A stretch of 12,502 bases of DNA from Filomicrobium sp. (GTDB taxonomy: Bacteria; Pseudomonadota; Alphaproteobacteria; Rhizobiales; Hyphomicrobiaceae). Position numbers and translations under genes: made by a program. Each line of letters opens with the position of its first letter. The stretch's first letter is position 1. The notes under the pieces were generated by a model. It was not told the DNA's origin, searched no databases, and saw only the letters and a program-made list of their open reading frames with translations. The DNA is taken from NCBI GenBank assembly GCA_021775655.1, contig JAJFHK010000245.1, positions 1 to 12,502 of the forward strand, in the 5' to 3' direction. This document shows positions 1 to 12,502 of this stretch, piece by piece.

Positions 1-1610
1 CCCGCGATCGACACCATCTCGTCGCCGTTGCTGGGTTCAAGCCCTGTCGTTTCGGTATCGAAGACCACATACGTGAGATCGCGAAGGCGCTGCCGGGCAA
101 GATCGCCTTCTTCCTCGCGACGCTCCAAGAGATCGAAGTCATAAAACTCGACGCGGACCGGCGGTGCGCCTGACGATTGCGCGGCATGCGCGGAAAGCGG
201 AGCAGGGACGGTCATCCGTAGGCTTGCGCGTCCGTCTTGAAGCGCTTCAGACCAAGCATCCGAGCGGTGTTTGTCGAGGACATCTCTCCCGGTCATGACA
301 CCGGCACCGTTTTCAAGCTGTGCGTCGAGCCAGGAAGCAAGCACGTCACCAGGCACCGGCTCGCCTCGCCAAATAATATCGAGAGTGCCTCGGTGTTCCC
401 CACAACTTGCCGCGAGCGCAAAAGTTTGTGTGCCGGTTGTCTCAAGAAGCGACCTGATTAATCTGTCCATCAATTCGATGATCAAATTGCTGTCGCAGTG
501 AAGCCAACAAGCTTCGCCGCTGACATCGCAGTGCACAACCGGGTGCTCGCGATAACGCCGGCTGATACAGCTCAACAGGTTGGCGGAATTGACATCGCTC
601 ATCGGCCAAAGCGTCGTATCTTCGGAATTATAATCGCTCGCCAGTTTATCGAGCAGCTCCGAGAGCGAGTGGCAATGACTTGCAATTCCCGAAACGGCGA
701 CATGCTGGGCTTCACGATGGATTCCGGCTGCGCTAATCAGCTGTTCGCATTCCTTGCGCAGTTCTTTCACCGGCTGGCGCAGATCTGAGATTGCATTCTT
801 GAGGAGACTGTCGCGCGATGCCAGCGCGGCCATCTGCCGGGTGGCATCGGAGAATGTCAAAACGTAACTTTCCGGCGCGGCCTGAGTGTCGTCGAGAATC
901 AGGCTCATTTTGCCTTGCAGAACGTGACGCCCGTCGGGCGTCGCAAACACCATCGGTGTCATCAAGTGGTCGGGATGGGATTTGTAGCGCCCCGATGTCA
1001 CCCTATTGGTCAGGCGTTCTAGAGTATTAAGAAACGGCGGCCGGTTGACGACGGTAAAAATCGATCTTCCGAGACCGAGATTGCCTCCATAGTGAAGTGC
1101 CTGCAGTGCACGCCGGTTATAAAGCAGCACCTGATGATCGAGATTGCAGACGATCACCCCTTCGTTGAGGTCGCGTAGCACCGTCTCCAGCCGGCTGCGC
1201 TGTCTTTCAAGCGCTGCCGTCGCGTCGGCAACCTTGCTATCGGCTTCGGACCTCAGCTGCCGCACGGCTTCACTGGCTTCACGCACAATAGGACCGAGCA
1301 AGCCCAGATACTGAGCAGCCCCATCTGCGATTTCATGATCCGGATTGGCGTGCATCATTGTCTGTAGATCACGCGACAGTGCAACTATCGGACGAGCCAC
1401 GTTTGTGTCGAACATGTGCCCAACCCAGGCTATGAGCCCGATGAGCGCAATGCATGCCGCTCCGCCAAGCAGCACCAGCGGTGGAATCGGGTTGCCATCC
1501 ATGCGCAAGACGGCAAGCCATATAGCGACACCCATCACAAGAGGAATCGCCACGGCTATCAAAGCGAAGAAGGCGGCGATCCGCGCGCGAAGACTGAACC
1601 GCTCAATCAT
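1..1610 (-). CDS. Membrane-anchored HAMP/PAS/degenerate histidine-kinase-like protein fused to DnaQ-type 3'-5' exonuclease (partial)
   Basis: The reading frame is open from ATG at 1610 to the left window edge (536 residues visible), so the C-terminus is missing. Two membrane segments (about residues 12-35 and 43-66) precede a HAMP-like linker, a coiled coil (about 110-145) and a PAS-like region (about 142-260). Next come a helix resembling a histidine-kinase dimerisation helix (266-292, ISDLRQPVKELR), where the phospho-accepting His is absent, and an ATPase-like segment (about 340-470) without a recognisable N-box Asn. From about 513 a DEDD exonuclease begins with VVFDTETTGLEP; D518 and E520 are the first two metal ligands. 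The start is forced: an in-frame TGA lies two codons upstream of ATG 1610, and GGGGGA sits 9 nt before it. It is divergent from the DUF4212/symporter pair. PAS-exonuclease genes beside VC_2705-type symporters are, as I recall, a recurring arrangement. Exonuclease identity is firm; a sensing role is inferred. Confidence 0.85.
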   Translation of the reverse strand, partial: MIERFSLRARIAAFFALIAVAIPLVMGVAIWLAVLRMDGNPIPPLVLLGGAACIALIGLIAWVGHMFDTNVARPIVALSRDLQTMMHANPDHEIADGAAQYLGLLGPIVREASEAVRQLRSEADSKVADATAALERQRSRLETVLRDLNEGVIVCNLDHQVLLYNRRALQALHYGGNLGLGRSIFTVVNRPPFLNTLERLTNRVTSGRYKSHPDHLMTPMVFATPDGRHVLQGKMSLILDDTQAAPESYVLTFSDATRQMAALASRDSLLKNAISDLRQPVKELRKECEQLISAAGIHREAQHVAVSGIASHCHSLSELLDKLASDYNSEDTTLWPMSDVNSANLLSCISRRYREHPVVHCDVSGEACWLHCDSNLIIELMDRLIRSLLETTGTQTFALAASCGEHRGTLDIIWRGEPVPGDVLASWLDAQLENGAGVMTGRDVLDKHRSDAWSEALQDGRASLRMTVPAPLSAHAAQSSGAPPVRVEFYDFDLLERREEEGDLARQRLRDLTYVVFDTETTGLEPSNGDEMVSIA

Positions 1611-2056: not shown

Positions 2057-2314
2057 ATGGACAACGAATCCGGCAATGCGTACTGGGCGGCTAATATCCG
2101 CCTCGTCACCGTGCTGCTCGCCATCTGGGCATTCGTCTCATTTGGTATGGGCATCCTGCTTCGCCCTATGCTCATGGACATCAAGGTCGGCGGCGTCGAC
2201 CTCGGTTTCTGGATGGCACAGAACGGCTCTATCTACGTCTTCCTCATCCTGATCTTTGTCTACGCAGTGATGATGAACGGCATCGATCGCCAGTATAACG
2301 TCGACGAAGAATAA
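2057..2314 (+). CDS. DUF4212 small subunit of a sodium:solute symporter (TIGR03647 type)
   Basis: An 85-residue protein with two membrane segments (about 14-36 and 48-74) and the family-typical stretch FWMAQNGSIYVFLILIFVYA, followed by a short charged tail (DRQYNVDEE). This family is encoded directly upstream of VC_2705-type symporters and is regarded as their small partner subunit in the inner membrane. The frame extends upstream to GTG 1835, but ATG 2057 is the better start: AGAGGGGAGA (2036-2045) lies 11 nt before it and homology begins at MDNESGNAYW. The stop is 20 bp from the symporter start, so the two are almost certainly co-transcribed and made together. Its biochemical role is not established in the family as far as I know. 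Confidence 0.92.
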   Translation: MDNESGNAYWAANIRLVTVLLAIWAFVSFGMGILLRPMLMDIKVGGVDLGFWMAQNGSIYVFLILIFVYAVMMNGIDRQYNVDEE

Positions 2315-2334: not shown

Positions 2335-4110
2335 ATGGATCTGAAAACAATGACTTATATCGTTGTTGGAGCAACGTTCTTGCTCTACATCGGTATTGCC
2401 ATCTGGGCACGCGCTAGTTCAACCAGCGACTTCTACGCAGCCGGCCGCGGCGTCAATCCGATCGCCAACGGCATGGCAACTGCAGCTGACTGGATGTCGG
2501 CAGCTTCGTTTATCTCCATGGCGGGCCTGATTGCCTTCCAAGGCTATCAGGGCGCCAAGTTCCTTATGGGCTGGACCGGCGGCTACGTGCTGCTCGCACT
2601 CCTGCTCGCGCCATACCTGCGTAAATTCGGCAAGTATACGGTTCCCGAGTTCATCGGCGACCGGTTCTACTCGCAGATGGCACGCCTTGTGGCGATCCTC
2701 TGCCTCATCACCATCTCCATCACCTACGTGATCGGTCAGATGAAGGGCGTCGGCGTTGCCTTCTCGCGCTTCCTCGACCTTCCCTACGAGTGGGGCCTTT
2801 ATGTGGGTATGTCGATCGTCTTCATCTACGCCGTTCTCGGCGGCATGAAAGGTATCACTTATACTCAGATCGCCCAGTACTGCGTGCTGATCACCGCCTA
2901 CACAATCCCAGCGGTGTTCATCTCGATGAACCTTACTGGCAACCCGATTCCTCAGCTCGGCCTCATCGGTAACGATGTCGGATCAGGTACGCCGCTGATA
3001 GCAAAGCTCAACCAAACGATTCAGGATATTGGCTTCGGTGCTTACGATGGTGACCCGCCAAGCTATCTGGACATGCTTCTGTATACGATCACTTTGATGA
3101 TTGGTACGGCAGGTCTGCCACACGTGATTATCCGCTTCTTCACCGTTCCAAAGGTGTCAGACGCGCGTTGGTCTGCCGGTTGGGCACTCGTGTTCATCGC
3201 GTTGCTCTACACGGTTGCTCCCGCTGTGGGTGCCATGGCCCGCTACAACGTGACCACCACCATCTGGCCGAATGGCGTCCAGGGTGAAGCCATCGCAGTG
3301 GATCAACTCCCGCAGTGGTTCCAAAACTGGGAAACCACCGGCCTCCTCAAGTATGAGGATAAGAACGGCGACGGTAAGATCCAATTCTACAATGATAAGT
3401 CAGAAGCCATGAAGACCTTGGCAACTGAAAGGGGCTGGCAGGGCAACGAGCTGACCAAGTTCGACCGCGACATCATGGTTCTCGCGAACCCGGAGATCGC
3501 AGGACTACCGAACTGGGTGATCGCGCTGGTCGCGGCCGGCGGTCTGGCAGCCGCGTTGTCAACTGCTGCCGGTTTGTTGTTGGCGATATCCTCGTCAATC
3601 TCGCACGACCTCCTAAAGAGCATGTTGATGCCGAACATCACCGAGCAAGGCGAACTGACGGCGGCTCGAGTCTCGATGGCAGGTGCCATCGCGGTCGCCG
3701 GATACTTTGGCCTTAACCCACCGGGCTTCGCAGCCCAGGTTGTGGCCCTGGCGTTCGGGCTTGCGGCATCCTCGATCTTCCCCGCGTTGATGATGGGAAT
3801 CTTCTCCAAACGCATCAACTCGCATGGGGCGATTCTGGGCATGGTGGCAGGTATCGGCGTCACGCTGGCCTACATCTTCGCTTATAAGGGAATGTTCTTC
3901 ATCCCCGGTACGGCGATCTTCCCGGCTTCGACGCCAGAGTACTGGATCATGGGCGTTTCGCCTGAGGCCTTCGGCTGCATTGGTGCACTCGTCAACTTCA
4001 TCGTGGCCTATGTGGTCTCGAGCGTGACGGCAGCTCCACCGAAGGAAATCCAGGACCTCGTTGAATCGATCCGCGTTCCTCGCGGAGCCGGTGTTGCGAC
4101 CAGCCACTAA
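2335..4110 (+). CDS. Sodium:solute symporter large subunit, VC_2705 subfamily (TIGR03648 type), acetate-permease-like
   Basis: A 591-residue polytopic inner-membrane transporter of the SSS (SLC5-like) family, expected to couple Na+ entry to uptake of a small organic solute. The N-terminal region has SDFYAAGRGVNP (31-42) and DWMSAASFISMAG (52-64), which resemble the acetate permease ActP, then GKYTVPEFIGDRF. The SSS signature is at 402-425 (AALSTAAGLLLAISSSISHD), where S409/T410 lie at the likely Na2 sodium site. Between membrane segments there is a hydrophilic insert (about 318-390) containing an EF-hand-like loop, DKNGDGKIQFYN (342-353). The start ATG has GGAGGGA 8-9 nt upstream, and the gene follows DUF4212 after 20 bp. 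A terminator follows at 4161-4195. The substrate cannot be read from sequence; acetate or another short carboxylate is the usual guess. ActP proper lacks a DUF4212 partner, which argues against calling it actP. Confidence 0.92.
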   Translation: MDLKTMTYIVVGATFLLYIGIAIWARASSTSDFYAAGRGVNPIANGMATAADWMSAASFISMAGLIAFQGYQGAKFLMGWTGGYVLLALLLAPYLRKFGKYTVPEFIGDRFYSQMARLVAILCLITISITYVIGQMKGVGVAFSRFLDLPYEWGLYVGMSIVFIYAVLGGMKGITYTQIAQYCVLITAYTIPAVFISMNLTGNPIPQLGLIGNDVGSGTPLIAKLNQTIQDIGFGAYDGDPPSYLDMLLYTITLMIGTAGLPHVIIRFFTVPKVSDARWSAGWALVFIALLYTVAPAVGAMARYNVTTTIWPNGVQGEAIAVDQLPQWFQNWETTGLLKYEDKNGDGKIQFYNDKSEAMKTLATERGWQGNELTKFDRDIMVLANPEIAGLPNWVIALVAAGGLAAALSTAAGLLLAISSSISHDLLKSMLMPNITEQGELTAARVSMAGAIAVAGYFGLNPPGFAAQVVALAFGLAASSIFPALMMGIFSKRINSHGAILGMVAGIGVTLAYIFAYKGMFFIPGTAIFPASTPEYWIMGVSPEAFGCIGALVNFIVAYVVSSVTAAPPKEIQDLVESIRVPRGAGVATSH

Positions 4111-4317: not shown

Positions 4318-5805
4318 TTGGAAGAGAAAAAGCAAGGAGCGCAAGGCGACGATGCGGCAGCAGGTCTCCCCAGCCGCGACACAGCAATTGAACTAATGAC
4401 GGCCTCTGCGCGCGATCTTATGACGGTCGGCGCAGTAACAATCCCGCCCGCTACAACGGTCATCGAAGCTGCTCGCCTGATGCGTCGGCACGATATCTCT
4501 TGCTTGCCCGTTGTCGAGAATGAAAAAATCGTCGGGATGTTCACCGACAGTGACCTGCGTAACCGCGTCGTCGCCGAGGCCGTGGAACTTAGCCGGCCGA
4601 TCGCAGATGTCATGTCGACCGGGATTGAGACACTCGACTGTGACGCGCTTGCATTCGATGCGCTAGTAATCATGATGCAGCACGACATCTCGCATCTGCC
4701 GATTACACACGATGGCAAGATCGCCGGCATACTGACGCGGACGAATATCGTGCGCGCTCAGTCTCGGTCGGCTGTTTATATGATCAGCGAGATTCACCGG
4801 CACGATAACATTGACGAAATGGCCAAGGTGGTCGGTCAAATCCCGCAACTGCTTGTCAGTCTCGTCGAAAGCGGAGCTTCAGCCCACAAGACAGGCCGCA
4901 TCATTACCTCGATTGCCGACGCCTTGACCCACCGTCTGATTGGCCTTGCCGAATCCCGTCTGGGGCCTGCGCCGGTTCCCTACGTTTGGGCTGCCTGCGG
5001 CTCGCAAGGGCGACAAGAACAGACCGGAGTTTCCGACCAGGACAATTGCCTCATCCTTGCTGATGCTTATGATGAATCGGTCCATGGCGCCTACTTCACC
5101 GAGTTTGCAAAATTCGTCAGCGACGGCCTCGATGCGTGCGGCTATTTCTATTGCCCTGGCGACATGATGGCGACCAACCCTGAGTGGCGTCAGCCGATAA
5201 GCCGGTGGGACAGGTACTTCCGTGAATGGATCGATCATCCAGGACCCAAGGCACAGATGCTCGCCAGCGTGATGTTCGACTTGCGCCCGATACATGGAAA
5301 ATTCCAGCTCTTTGATGAACTACAGGCGCCGATGCTCGAACGGGCAAGAAAAAACTCGATCTTTATCGCCCACCTGCTGAGCAATGCCCTGACCCATCGA
5401 CCCCCTTTGGGATTCCTTGGAACGTTGTCTCTCGAAGGCGGTGACCATCGCGGCACGATCGACTTGAAAAAGAATGGCGTCGTTCCGATCGTCGACATCG
5501 CGCGCGTATACGCCCTTGAAGCTTCAATCACGGAAGTGAATACCCACCGCCGCCTTGAAGAGGGCCGCCAGGCCAGCGTTATGAGCGAGGCCGGAGCAGC
5601 AGATCTTTTGGCTGCATTCGAATTCATCGCCATTACCCGCTTGCGCCATCAAGCCCATCAGATTCGGGCTGGCGGCAAGCCCGACAACTTCATGTCCCCA
5701 AACGAAATTTCGCATCTGGAGCGTGATCAGCTAAAGAAGGCATTCCAGGTCGTCAAAACCATCCAATCCGCGCTGTCGAACGCCCACCAGATCGGGGCCC
5801 GCTAA
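4318..5805 (+). CDS. CBS-pair, DUF294 putative nucleotidyltransferase protein
   Basis: A 495-residue soluble protein. Two CBS domains (about 31-85 and 95-148) probably bind an adenine nucleotide. A DUF294 nucleotidyltransferase domain follows (about 165-320) with CGSQGRQEQTGVSDQDN at 227-243; the G-S/G-R-x-E and D240-x-D242 pattern matches the GlnD/GlnE-type catalytic core. The rest (about 335-490) fits the DUF294_C substrate-binding domain. The target is unknown; such proteins are thought to modify or sense by nucleotidyl transfer. The start is TTG 4318: AAGGAGG (4304-4310) lies 7 nt upstream, and the first ATG (4396) would enter the first CBS domain without a good site. Many relatives have an N-terminal cyclic-nucleotide-binding domain, which is absent here. 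It lies downstream of the symporter beyond a terminator, so it likely has its own promoter. It probably regulates the symporter system; this is inferred from context. Confidence 0.88.
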   Translation: MEEKKQGAQGDDAAAGLPSRDTAIELMTASARDLMTVGAVTIPPATTVIEAARLMRRHDISCLPVVENEKIVGMFTDSDLRNRVVAEAVELSRPIADVMSTGIETLDCDALAFDALVIMMQHDISHLPITHDGKIAGILTRTNIVRAQSRSAVYMISEIHRHDNIDEMAKVVGQIPQLLVSLVESGASAHKTGRIITSIADALTHRLIGLAESRLGPAPVPYVWAACGSQGRQEQTGVSDQDNCLILADAYDESVHGAYFTEFAKFVSDGLDACGYFYCPGDMMATNPEWRQPISRWDRYFREWIDHPGPKAQMLASVMFDLRPIHGKFQLFDELQAPMLERARKNSIFIAHLLSNALTHRPPLGFLGTLSLEGGDHRGTIDLKKNGVVPIVDIARVYALEASITEVNTHRRLEEGRQASVMSEAGAADLLAAFEFIAITRLRHQAHQIRAGGKPDNFMSPNEISHLERDQLKKAFQVVKTIQSALSNAHQIGAR

Positions 5806-5840: not shown

Positions 5841-6356
5841 GTGATCTACTTATTGCTAGCAACTCTTGCCCTTGGCGGCTGCGCAGCCGGGGTCGTATGG
5901 ATGGTCGCAAAACCCTTCGGTTGGAAGCCTCCCGGCGTACTCTACTTGATAGCCGCCGCCGCCGGTATGCTGGGCTATTCAGTCTACGACGAGTACACAT
6001 GGTTTGACCGCGCCACGACTGCCCTCCCCAACAGGCTCCAAGTCGTGCGTTCCTATGCCACCAGCATGCCTTATCAGCCCTGGACCTATGCTGCCCCCCG
6101 CATCTACCGATTTGACGCGGTCGACCTCGGCTCATTGCGCGCTAATCCCAAGGCTCCTGACCTCGCGCTTATCAGGCTCCTGCGGGTCACCAGAAACACA
6201 TCTAGCAACAACGTTTCAGCGATCCTGGATTGCCCCAACGCGCGCTACACCGAAATTGATACTTCGACGCAGTTTACCGAAAGCGGTATCCCCAAAAATC
6301 CTGACTGGCAAAGCCTCACTGACCATCGGGCGTTGAAAGCGGCGATCTGCAAGTAG
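5841..6356 (+). CDS. Unknown small membrane protein
   Basis: A 171-residue protein starting at GTG 5841, with AAAAGGA ending 11 nt upstream, 35 bp after the CBS-DUF294 stop and probably co-transcribed. Residues 2-22 and about 32-49 are hydrophobic and likely span the membrane. The rest is polar, with RNTSSNNVSAILDCPNARYT around the centre and cysteines at 131 and 170 that could form a disulfide if the tail is periplasmic. I do not recognise a named family. LGGC near the N-terminus resembles a lipobox, but there is no positively charged n-region and a second membrane segment follows, so lipidation is unlikely. The function is unknown; its position suggests an accessory role to the upstream gene, with weak support. 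Confidence 0.7.
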   Translation: MIYLLLATLALGGCAAGVVWMVAKPFGWKPPGVLYLIAAAAGMLGYSVYDEYTWFDRATTALPNRLQVVRSYATSMPYQPWTYAAPRIYRFDAVDLGSLRANPKAPDLALIRLLRVTRNTSSNNVSAILDCPNARYTEIDTSTQFTESGIPKNPDWQSLTDHRALKAAICK

Positions 6357-9629: not shown

Positions 9630-10511
9630 CTACCGTAATGGCTTTCGATAGGTTTCGACGCGCGCCATCCAGCCCTGCTTCCAGCGCTTGTCCCGCGGAT
9701 TGTTTGCGATACGGCGCAAGAGTGCGAATCGCGCTGCATCCGCAAACTCACCGAGTACGACGCGCGGCTCTTTCGAAGTCCCCTGCATCGCCAGTAGGAC
9801 TTGCTTGAGACCCCAGCCTTCGGGGCGATCGGATTTACGGTTGGAAAACGTTTCGGATTCGCTGATCCCCTCACCTTTGAAGTTGATGTAATCGATCAGA
9901 GGGTAAAGGTCGTCGGATGCGGCCACGACGCGATTGAACTGATTGCGGACGTGCGTACGGTCCTTCTGGTTCTGCAAGCTTTCTTCGATCCGAGGCAAGG
10001 CTTCCTGCATACGCAATGCAAGGAATTGCGCTTGAAGGCCGAATGTGTCGAGGAGGAACGCGCGTAAGTTGGTCATTTTTTCCGAGTGGAACGCGCGCTC
10101 GAATTCCTGTTTCGTCTTCCATGGCGAAGGAGGAACGGGCGCAACATCGAGCCACCTCGGTGGCCTCGCACCCCGGTTGCGCAAAAACTCCATCATCGCT
10201 GGAAAGCTCTCGACGAACCGGGATTTGAGCCCTTCCGAAAACCAGATGAAATGACCAATGCCCAAAGACGCGAAGTCCTCGCTTGCATTCCACGCTGTGA
10301 TGACATCCCGGACGCCACCCGTTTCATTCAGCCAAACCTGACGGCCAACCTTCGCTGCAAGTTCCGGCGAGACTTGAATGGGCTTCATAGGGGCGACTGC
10401 AAGTTGCGGTTTGGTGACAAGAACGGGTGCAGGTGCTTCAGCGAGTGCCATTGATGATGACGCAATTGCCATGGTCGAGACAAGGATTCCAAAGAAGCGC
10501 AGCAAGTCCAT
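9630..10511 (-). CDS. Exported protein with lysozyme-like (GH24-like) motifs, function unknown
   Basis: A 293-residue protein with a signal peptide (about 1-25, ALA|EA). The conserved-looking core starts at VWLNETGG (59-66) and ASLGIGHFIW (81-90), and later has YINFKGEG (208-215) and GWGLKQVLLAM (232-242). Glu63, followed about 20 residues later by GIGH and then by an FxxGxG helix segment, resembles T4-type lysozyme (Glu11, T-I-G-I-G-H at 26-31, the helix ending FQMGE). The lysozyme spacing is a few residues shorter (17 against 21 from Glu to GIG). I recall similar exported proteins annotated only as hypothetical. The start is uncertain: GAGGA directly abuts ATG 10511, whereas TTG 10505 is 6 nt from it and would give MLRFFGIL as the signal-peptide start. 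Neighbouring L,D-transpeptidase and opgH genes support an envelope role. A muramidase function is a hypothesis. Confidence 0.75.
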   Translation of the reverse strand: MDLLRFFGILVSTMAIASSSMALAEAPAPVLVTKPQLAVAPMKPIQVSPELAAKVGRQVWLNETGGVRDVITAWNASEDFASLGIGHFIWFSEGLKSRFVESFPAMMEFLRNRGARPPRWLDVAPVPPSPWKTKQEFERAFHSEKMTNLRAFLLDTFGLQAQFLALRMQEALPRIEESLQNQKDRTHVRNQFNRVVAASDDLYPLIDYINFKGEGISESETFSNRKSDRPEGWGLKQVLLAMQGTSKEPRVVLGEFADAARFALLRRIANNPRDKRWKQGWMARVETYRKPLR

Positions 10512-10620: not shown

Positions 10621-12078
10621 TCAACTGGCGCGTCGCCGGATCGTCCCTATCAGCACTGCAAACAGGCACGTCCATGTGACCCCGATAACGACGGCCCATG
10701 GCCACGGAACCGCCCCCAGCCCAAATCCAATACCCCACTGCGTTGCAATCATGACAGCGACGACACTTGAAAACACGGCAATCACGCTTGCCATGTCATC
10801 TGCGATGTGACGCAGAAAGTAGGCGGTGACAAACAGGCCGAGCAGCCCACCGTAGGTGTAGCCCATGATCTGCAGGCCAAACCACAATATTGATGGTTGC
10901 TGTCCGAAACCAACAGCGATCAAGGCAAGGATGATCGCAAAGGCGACGACGAGAAATCGCGGCCCACCGAGCAGCCCATCCGAATTCTCGTTTCGCGTCA
11001 GACCGAGATCGAAATAGGCCGACGAGGCCAAACCGCTAAGAGCCGAATCGAGAGAAGACATTGCCGCTGCGAGCAGACCGGCAATCAACAATCCCCGCAA
11101 GCCCGCTGGCAATTCATGCCGAATGAAGTGGGGGAACACGTAATCAAAGCGCTTCTCTGCCACCAATGCGCTGACGGCGTCCTGCGGAAAGGCTTGGTAA
11201 AAAGCAAACACCGCGACACCAGCGCTGAGGAATAAGACCGTGCTGATGATGTCGGCGGCGCCCGCTGCCGTGACTGCAATACCAGCTTGCCGCGCGTTGC
11301 GGCAGGCAAGTGCGCGCTGGGCCACATCCTGGTCGGCCCCTCCAGTAGCCAGCCCGAGTACGAAAGCGAAGAGATTCCCCATCCAGAACGTCGCTGGGTC
11401 TGCGAAGTCGAGTCGGAAATCGAACACCTGGAATTTGCCGGCTTCCATGCCGACCGCGACAATCTGTGAGAAACCGTCCGGCAATGACAGTCCCACATAG
11501 AGGATCGTTGCCAGCGCACCTGACAAGAAGAGCATGAGCTGTAGTGCGTCAGTCCAGATGACAGCGCGAAGTCCACCGGTCAGCACGTAGATGGCAGCGA
11601 TGCCTGAAATTAGCGCTATGGCCTGGACGAGCCCGAGATCAAAAAAAACCGAAACGGCGATGGCGCATCCAGCAAGCCGGACTGCACTTGCAAGACACCG
11701 GCTTACAATGAAAACAATGGTGCCGCTCACTCGGGTCCATGGCCCAATCCTGTGTCCGAGGTACTCGTAGACCGTCGAAACATTCAGGCGATAAAATTCC
11801 CGAACGAAGATTGTCGCGACAATGTAGGCAGCGAGAAATGAGCCAAACCAGAGCTGCACGTATGTGAAATTGCCGGCGATGGCCACACCCGGCACGCCGA
11901 TGAACGTTAGCGCCGACAGTTTGGTTGCCCAGGTCGAGGCCGCAACCGGCAGCCATCCTTCCTTACGGCCAGCCAGAAAATAATCGGATTCATTTTGCGC
12001 ACGGCCGCCGACAGCAACGCCCAGGATGAGCACCGCCACGGCATATCCACCGATGGCCAGCCAATCGAGAGCCATCAT
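10621..12078 (-). CDS. Sodium:solute symporter family protein (second type, SLC5-like)
   Basis: A 485-residue polytopic transporter of the SSS family. SDYFLAGR (31-38) and STWATKLSALTFIGVPG (48-64) match the first conserved block; TGGADQDVAQRALACRNARQA (245-265) matches the family DQ-x-x-x-QR segment; the SSS signature is LLIAGLLAAAMSSLDSALSG (330-349) with S341/S342 at the likely sodium site. About 13 membrane segments can be drawn. It lacks the EF-hand-like insert and has no DUF4212 partner, so it belongs to a different subfamily from the symporter at 2335-4110. Two ATG codons stand in tandem (12078 and 12075); AGGCGG lies about 10 nt upstream. It starts 21 bp after the malic-enzyme stop, so an operon is likely, and its substrate may be a carboxylate or sugar acid. 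A weak GCGCC/GGCGC hairpin at 10546-10561 follows without a T-tract. Confidence 0.9.
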   Translation of the reverse strand: MMALDWLAIGGYAVAVLILGVAVGGRAQNESDYFLAGRKEGWLPVAASTWATKLSALTFIGVPGVAIAGNFTYVQLWFGSFLAAYIVATIFVREFYRLNVSTVYEYLGHRIGPWTRVSGTIVFIVSRCLASAVRLAGCAIAVSVFFDLGLVQAIALISGIAAIYVLTGGLRAVIWTDALQLMLFLSGALATILYVGLSLPDGFSQIVAVGMEAGKFQVFDFRLDFADPATFWMGNLFAFVLGLATGGADQDVAQRALACRNARQAGIAVTAAGAADIISTVLFLSAGVAVFAFYQAFPQDAVSALVAEKRFDYVFPHFIRHELPAGLRGLLIAGLLAAAMSSLDSALSGLASSAYFDLGLTRNENSDGLLGGPRFLVVAFAIILALIAVGFGQQPSILWFGLQIMGYTYGGLLGLFVTAYFLRHIADDMASVIAVFSSVVAVMIATQWGIGFGLGAVPWPWAVVIGVTWTCLFAVLIGTIRRRAS

Positions 12079-12099: not shown

Positions 12100-12502
12100 C
12101 TACCATCCTGCCTCATAGGCGCCGATCACCGCCATGTTGACGATATCGGAATCGCGCGAACCAAGCGAACAGATCTGCACAGGCTTTTCCATACCAACAA
12201 GGATCGGTCCAATGATGGTCGCGCCACCGAGTTCACGCAGCATCTTTGTTGAGATTGATGCCGCATGAAAAGCCGGCATGACCAGCACGTTGGCGGTGTC
12301 TGACAAGCGGCAGAACGGATAAAGAGACATCAGCTCAGGATTTAGCGCAACATCGGCGGCCATATCTCCGTCGTACTCGAAATCGACGCCCATCTCATCA
12401 AGCAGCGCTACTGCTTTGCGAACGTCATCCGAGCGCTCACCGCGCGGCTGACCGAACGTCGAATAGGCAAGCAGGGCAACCCGCGGCTCGATGCCGAAGC
12501 TG
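12100..12502 (-). CDS. maeB: NADP-dependent malic enzyme, C-terminal phosphotransacetylase-like domain (partial)
   Basis: The last 133 residues of a gene that begins beyond the right edge. The stretch EPRVALLAYSTFG, then DFEYDGDMAADVALNPELM, PFCRLSDTANVLVMPA, GGATIIGPILVG and SDIVNMAV is typical of the phosphotransacetylase-like regulatory domain that ends rhizobial malic enzymes, which decarboxylate malate to pyruvate with NAD(P)+. In these enzymes the domain lacks transacetylase activity and mediates acetyl-CoA control. A free-standing phosphate acetyltransferase cannot be excluded because the N-terminal catalytic part is outside the window, but the short tail after IVNMAV and the similarity to rhizobial malic enzymes favour MaeB. 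NADP against NAD preference cannot be judged. A symporter gene follows after 21 bp. Confidence 0.85.
   Translation of the reverse strand, partial: SFGIEPRVALLAYSTFGQPRGERSDDVRKAVALLDEMGVDFEYDGDMAADVALNPELMSLYPFCRLSDTANVLVMPAFHAASISTKMLRELGGATIIGPILVGMEKPVQICSLGSRDSDIVNMAVIGAYEAGW

Follow-up and report, generated by a model that had tools for sequence, protein, structure and literature searches.

Sensors built on a histidine-kinase (HK) core normally end in phosphotransfer, and the locus analysed here raises the question of what such a sensor does when the fold is kept, the chemistry discarded and an intact nuclease attached. The locus lies at one edge of a 12,502-nucleotide stretch of Filomicrobium sp. 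DNA (contig JAJFHK010000245.1), the whole of which is referred to as the window; it represents an entire contig (C163) of a genome that is divided over 529 contigs and is 70% complete. A preliminary description of this stretch had proposed that a partial gene encodes an HK-like sensor unable to act as a kinase, followed by a DEDD-type exonuclease with an intact motif I. Sequence profiles, predicted folds, and a comparison of 198 homologs confirm the observation, while the interpretation given with it, in which ligand binding could gate the nuclease, is supported in part. The sensor-exonuclease fusion is a conserved protein family, a description of which was not found in the open-access literature searched. 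If the nuclease is gated by the sensor, bacterial membrane signalling would gain a new type of output through this family.

Materials and Methods

Homologs of the window protein numbered 177 at E<=0.001, and among the best 120 of these most had a length of 700-725 aa. The set of 198 homologs consisted of these best 120 of 177 and 78 new ones that were obtained by searching with the region covering the DHp and CA parts only, whereas alignment A1 was restricted to 59 of the best 120. Genomic context was compared in 17 full-length loci, comprising the window, five loci from a contig scan with a single query, and 11 from a draw of 385 genomes. As controls, 20 exonuclease loci were picked among the other listed matches of the 385-genome draw, and the related loci L051-L078 were the next-best listed exonuclease matches, which were picked and do not represent a random draw. 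Sixteen genomic copies of the fusion were inspected, which overlap in part with the 198 homologs (e.g., L010 and P0013 are at zero length from each other in the tree). AlphaFold2 models were made of the 536 aa encoded in the window (mean pLDDT 76.2, pTM 0.50) and of the 709-aa relative P0001 (mean pLDDT 80.1, pTM 0.60); in view of these values the domain folds are usable and the domain arrangement is not. Since the matches listed for the full-length model in a structure search were taken up by the exonuclease, the sensor part was modelled separately.

Results

The fusion gene and its continuation

The fusion gene (3..1610, minus strand) is an open frame of 536 aa that runs off the contig end and covers residues 1-536 of the approximately 709 aa expected for the complete protein. 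The most likely home of the remaining exonuclease part is C387:1-585 of the same genome; window positions 1-65 and C387:1-65 form a 65-bp overlap with four substitutions, all A to T on the coding strand. Judged from these sequences, C387 would carry the rest of this gene, the differences reflecting strain variation, or else hold a second copy that is nearly identical, while an assembly effect is also possible. Continuation is favoured because a homolog of the next, convergent gene on C387 also lies 3' of the fusion in L006, L008, L009, and L010. A fusion created by chance or by assembly at the contig end was ruled out by the single-chain homologs of approximately 700 aa that are found across many contigs and, in the case of L010, in a 4.47-Mb chromosome record.

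Source names of the homologs include Filomicrobium, other Hyphomicrobiaceae, Methyloligellaceae, Stappia, Rubrimonas, Azospirillum picis, and Cohaesibacter, as well as Candidatus Thiodiazotropha, a gammaproteobacterium, and a small number of more broadly named bins. Among the matches listed in order of E-value, at least 12 of the 385 genomes of the class (including the source genome, in which the gene is cut by the contig end) had a match that spans the sensor and the HK-like part and reaches the exonuclease.

A membrane sensor with the order of a histidine kinase

Hydropathy places two transmembrane (TM) helices at residues 17-35 and 45-63 (1422..1562, minus strand), separated by a short loop that leaves no periplasmic domain, and the model of the window protein has helices at 7-35 and 42-87 in this region. 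Exactly two TM segments were found by hydropathy within the first 140 residues of 191/198 members, with a median loop of 15 aa, which makes a periplasmic ligand domain unlikely; sensing would therefore proceed via the cytoplasmic PAS domain, the membrane, or partner proteins. The TM helices are followed on the same strand by a HAMP-like and coiled segment (residues 64-128, 1227..1421), recognized by weak HAMP matches and the predicted model, and by a PAS domain (residues 140-257, 840..1193), recognized by family matches and the predicted model. Further downstream are a DHp-like helical hairpin (residues 257-330, 621..842), with helices predicted at 257-293 and 299-329, and a CA/HATPase-like domain (residues 331-476, 183..620), of which the alpha/beta fold spans residues 338-469 in the predicted models. 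A linker with a conserved EFYDFDLL motif (residues 477-505, 96..182), in which residues 478-501 are predicted with low confidence (pLDDT below 50), connects the sensor to the exonuclease.

The kinase-like architecture that the preliminary description had placed in residues 260-475 is thus present in the predicted fold, and the best Foldseek matches of the sensor part are the histidine kinases 4i5s and 9a5d, with strong E-values and low overall TM-scores (0.27-0.36 by target). The HATPase_c signature expected of a histidine kinase was not recovered by Pfam: at E<=0.1 the window protein did not match this family, nor was it among the best 25 of the 54 Pfam families with matches among 59 members at E<=1, the other families each matching at most one member. 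A profile-profile comparison of the HK-like region with 11 HK cores from neighbouring genes, selected for an intact H box, gave a probability of 98 and an E-value of 1.5e-13 over 202 columns. Profiles and predicted folds together assign the sensor part to the TM-HAMP-PAS-DHp-CA histidine-kinase fold, the HAMP part being weak.

Loss of the kinase residues

The phospho-acceptor His is replaced by Ser275 (codon 786-788) in the window protein and most often by Glu in the family; position 275 is Glu in 145, Asp in 15 and His in none of the 198 homologs, and His was equally absent from the 15 of the 16 genomic copies in which the H box was readable. The G1 Asp is replaced by Trp414 (codon 369-371), and this site holds Trp in 194, Phe in two, Tyr in two and Asp in 0/198 homologs. 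At the N-box, Arg383 and Ser387 stand for Asn in the window protein, while position 383 is mostly Arg or His and position 387 mostly Arg or Lys across the family, both Asn being kept in 0/198. The protein thereby combines an HK fold with the loss of the kinase residues, as in DivL-type proteins, and judged from these replacements the HK-like part cannot act as a kinase. In the family, mostly basic residues now occupy the former Mg-binding Asn sites 383 and 387, as if the nucleotide pocket took a new role.

The search with the DHp-CA region returned 98 proteins, of which 97 carry RNase_T, and the exception, P0137 (533 aa), stops inside the nuclease. This search, whose reach is confined to proteins that are 0.55-1.75 times as long as the query and have short words in common with it, found no relative of the HK-like region that would be active. 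Within that reach, the dead kinase core appears to occur only in the sensor-exonuclease fusion.

Conservation differs by domain: 73/204 columns of the exonuclease are at least 90% conserved versus 3/70 of the DHp part, and the TM and HAMP-like parts are about as little conserved as DHp. The corresponding figures are 25/132 for PAS and 17/146 for the CA-like domain, among homologs down to about 37% identity, and W335, G365, D373, and G416 are invariant in the 59 sequences of A1.

An intact exonuclease domain and its relatives

The window contains the start of the DEDDh exonuclease (3..95, minus strand), with motif I represented by Asp518 (57-59) and Glu520 (51-53). The remaining motifs, which could have been lost past the window edge, are retained, as the DEDDh pentad (D-E-D-H-D) is intact in 196/198 homologs and in 16/16 genomic copies. 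Five catalytic residues on an RNase H-like fold place the domain in RNase_T (PF00929), of which another exonuclease is encoded on C190 of the same genome, and the fusion is predicted to be an active, membrane-tethered DEDDh 3'-5' exonuclease.

In a quick tree, built from 78 exonuclease domains, 19/20 controls were separated from all associated exonucleases (SH-aLRT 100), several controls being derived from the same genomes as associated ones; control L091, which itself lies beside a DUF294 gene, fell inside the associated group. N-terminal forms within this group include TM-HAMP-PAS-DHp-CA, TM-PAS, bare TM (a hairpin in L054 and L055, a single TM in L052), EamA, and forms without TM (L062 and L063). 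The full sensor form needs six changes on the exonuclease tree, so that the kinase-like part may have been either gained or lost. EamA-exonuclease fusions were seen beside DUF294 in L058 (7274-8779, plus strand), L059 (8246-9763, minus strand), and L060 (8403-9911, minus strand), the EamA part, a two-repeat transporter domain, being assigned by Pfam in L058 and L059 and by TM pattern and tree position in L060. Single-chain DEDDh exonuclease-CBS-DUF294 fusions were present in L070 (8062-10317, plus strand) and L071 (6503-8638, minus strand).

Genomic context

Divergent from the fusion gene, the window encodes a DUF4212/TIGR03647 small subunit of a sodium/substrate symporter (2057..2314, plus strand) and a TIGR03648 VC_2705-family large subunit of a sodium/solute symporter (2335..4110, plus strand; 830 bits at a cut-off of 320.75), followed by a CBS-CBS-DUF294-DUF294_C putative nucleotidyltransferase (4318..5805, plus strand) with an intact GSQGR...DQD motif. 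This GSxGR...DQD motif, which we take to be the catalytic motif of the DUF294 nucleotidyltransferase, is intact in 41/41 DUF294 proteins. The CBS-DUF294 protein of the window is without the N-terminal cNMP-binding domain that is found in relatives L006, L007, L010, and L046; this domain is just under the cut-off in L047 and also absent from the more distant L051, and a search of the window for a remnant of it near the DUF294 gene found none. At the other end of the window a second SSF symporter (10621-12078, minus strand) adjoins a gene that is cut by the contig end and encodes a C-terminal PTA_PTB domain (12100-12501, minus strand), while the frames at 5841-6356 (plus strand) and 9630-10511 (minus strand) had no family match over a curated cut-off.

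DUF294 was present in the fetched stretch of 12/17 full-length loci and 27/28 related exonuclease loci, versus 2/20 controls, and the symporter pair in 8/17 full-length and 14/28 related loci (L051-L078). A frame of approximately 900-1080 aa with an HK core was found in 9/17 full-length loci. In eight of these (L007, L040-L043, and L048-L050) it immediately follows the fusion gene on the same strand, with abutting frames in L048-L050. These neighbours are called CrbS-like by inference from their sequences: the seven of the nine that were inspected for this have an intact H box and between 10 and 12 hydrophobic segments, and of the five that were scanned all had HisKA and HATPase_c and two an SSF match below the cut-off. 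A CrbS-like HK is absent within the window, and one is located on C356 of the same genome (55% identity, one internal TGA). A response regulator was seen in one of 10 neighbouring proteins scanned (L045). All three partners occur together in 2/17 loci (L007 and L041) and at least one in 15/17, the window having DUF294 and the symporter pair; the two partner-free loci, L009 and L044, lie on cut or short contigs. The context of the relatives, i.e., symporter pair, CBS-DUF294 protein and CrbS-like HK, points to carboxylate uptake.

Discussion

The fusion family appears to sit within a known nutrient-signalling neighbourhood. According to the passages on these genes in a study of Pseudomonas putida (PMC9927547), pp_0354, which encodes a CBS protein, shares an operon with pp_0353, a gene of the RNase_T family; the pp_0354 promoter is bound by ErdR, and the pair is a target of MxtR/ErdR, which corresponds to CrbS/R. 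Pyruvate growth was impaired by deletion of pp_0353 or actP-I, whereas a strain deleted for pp_0354 had no defect on pyruvate, and in the conditions of that study neither the pp_0353 nor the pp_0354 deletion changed growth with acetate or succinate (PMC9927547). The same passages place a pair of this type beside actP in P. aeruginosa PAO1 and P. fluorescens NCTC10783. In the portions consulted of two further papers, the CrbS/R regulon of P. fluorescens includes a cAMP-binding/CBS/nucleotidyltransferase protein (PMC5715377), and RpuS/R, a system for pyruvate, belongs to the same SLC5/STAC type (PMC9100948). The present locus resembles pp_0353/pp_0354 in combining an RNase_T exonuclease with a CBS-domain protein and a link to pyruvate, the likeness being one of described features; unlike the window fusion, pp_0353 is presented in those passages of PMC9927547 with no mention of a PAS or HK-like part. 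The authors of that work called the role of pp_0353 unclear and suggested mRNA decay, and a gated nuclease would offer a concrete handle on its effect on pyruvate growth.

The reading favoured here, and held to be probable on the basis of sequences and predicted models, is that of a membrane-tethered DEDDh exonuclease under the control of a kinase-dead, HK-derived sensor, which would govern either its activity or its placement and thereby tune acetate/pyruvate-type uptake. The PAS/DHp dimer would switch conformation on a cytoplasmic or membrane signal. This signal might be a ligand for the PAS domain, the symporter's state, or the phosphorylated response regulator belonging to a CrbS-like system, which the dimer perhaps binds as DivL does DivK~P. 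Relay of the switch to the nuclease could run via the CA-like domain and then via the EFYDFDLL linker, and the nuclease would trim a short RNA or oligonucleotide and so tune uptake; candidate substrates are uptake-gene mRNA, a short oligonucleotide, or the product of DUF294. Within this scheme a gated-nuclease output is likely, as far as sequence and models indicate, and the usual location of the family near genes for small-carboxylic-acid uptake suggests a nutrient sensor that cuts nucleic acid and does not pass phosphate. Against this reading, and against strong claims on mechanism, stand the absence of a CrbS-like kinase from the window, the lack of any extracellular sensing domain, the small number of loci with all three partners, the single response regulator among the neighbours scanned, the weak conservation of DHp and its omission by relatives, and the differing phenotypes of pp_0353 and pp_0354.

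Alternatively, the sensor half could be a membrane anchor only, holding a constitutively active exonuclease beside the symporter. Exonucleases of the same clade are indeed carried by a bare TM hairpin, one TM, EamA, or TM-PAS, and the hairpin of the fusion is almost loop-free, but the conserved PAS and CA-like positions, including the four invariant residues, go beyond the needs of an anchor, which renders this explanation unlikely. The poor conservation of DHp, together with the TM-PAS-, TM- and EamA-exonuclease relatives that omit the kinase-like part, nevertheless indicates that this part may be optional or a mere spacer. A further proposal is that the dead DHp-CA acts mainly on a two-component system, by pairing with the CrbS-like HK or competing for its regulator, with the nuclease as a separate output; the directly downstream HK genes, the CrbS-like gene on C356 and the DivL precedent (PMC4211667, in the part consulted) speak for it, whereas 8/17 loci (including the window, L006, L008, and L010) are without such an HK in the fetched stretch and relatives without the HK-like part keep the exonuclease and its DUF294 neighbour, and its probability is rated as low.

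Somewhat less credible still is a writer/eraser couple, in which DUF294 would add nucleotides to a protein or RNA 3' end, or make a nucleotide signal, that the exonuclease removes. It would account for the linkage of the two genes, their fusion in L070 and L071 and the uniformly intact DUF294 motif, but in P. putida the loss of pp_0353 and not that of pp_0354 caused the pyruvate defect, according to the relevant passages of PMC9927547. It is very improbable that the protein is an ordinary epsilon subunit of DNA polymerase III or another housekeeping exonuclease, although part of the source annotations carry the name "DNA polymerase III subunit epsilon". PolC and epsilon exonucleases are its nearest solved structures, and P0001, P0070, P0105, and P0119 passed the broad epsilon-family domain model TIGR00573 (110, 117.8, 99.6, and 110.2 bits; cut-off 71.5), although all four stayed below the cut-off of 222.7 of the dnaQ_proteo equivalog TIGR01406 (117.9, 125.3, 123.2, and 110.3 bits, respectively); this shortfall, the separate tree group of 19/20 controls and the membrane tether rule out an ordinary DnaQ, and the genome encodes a further RNase_T-family exonuclease on C190.

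The sensor-controlled exonuclease that is favoured here shares features with several known systems. In Caulobacter, DivL provides a precedent for a dead HK core that acts as an input sensor by reading a phosphorylated regulator, as described in the part of the source consulted (PMC4211667; PDB 4q20). DivL has Tyr at the His position, where the fusion family mostly has Glu, and the family is moreover without ATP-site residues and carries an exonuclease. A nuclease is presumably absent from DivL. WalK/VicK-type kinases (4i5s and 9a5d) have the same TM-HAMP-PAS-DHp-CA order and are the best structural matches of the sensor part; unlike the fusion, they have kinase activity and the H, N, G1, and G2 boxes, and they are not known to carry a nuclease. 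PolC/DnaQ-type DEDDh exonucleases have the fold and the five catalytic residues in common with the fusion, but are parts of replication polymerases and are not known to be membrane-bound. In eukaryotes, IRE1 and RNase L, one of which is a membrane sensor, place a kinase-like module ahead of a nuclease output; their kinase and nuclease folds are unrelated to those of the fusion, and gating is established for them. By analogy, the fusion might tentatively be regarded as a bacterial counterpart of IRE1/RNase L in logic, in which a kinase-derived nuclease switch and DUF294 would act as eraser and writer of a nucleotide mark or signal that sets carboxylate uptake.
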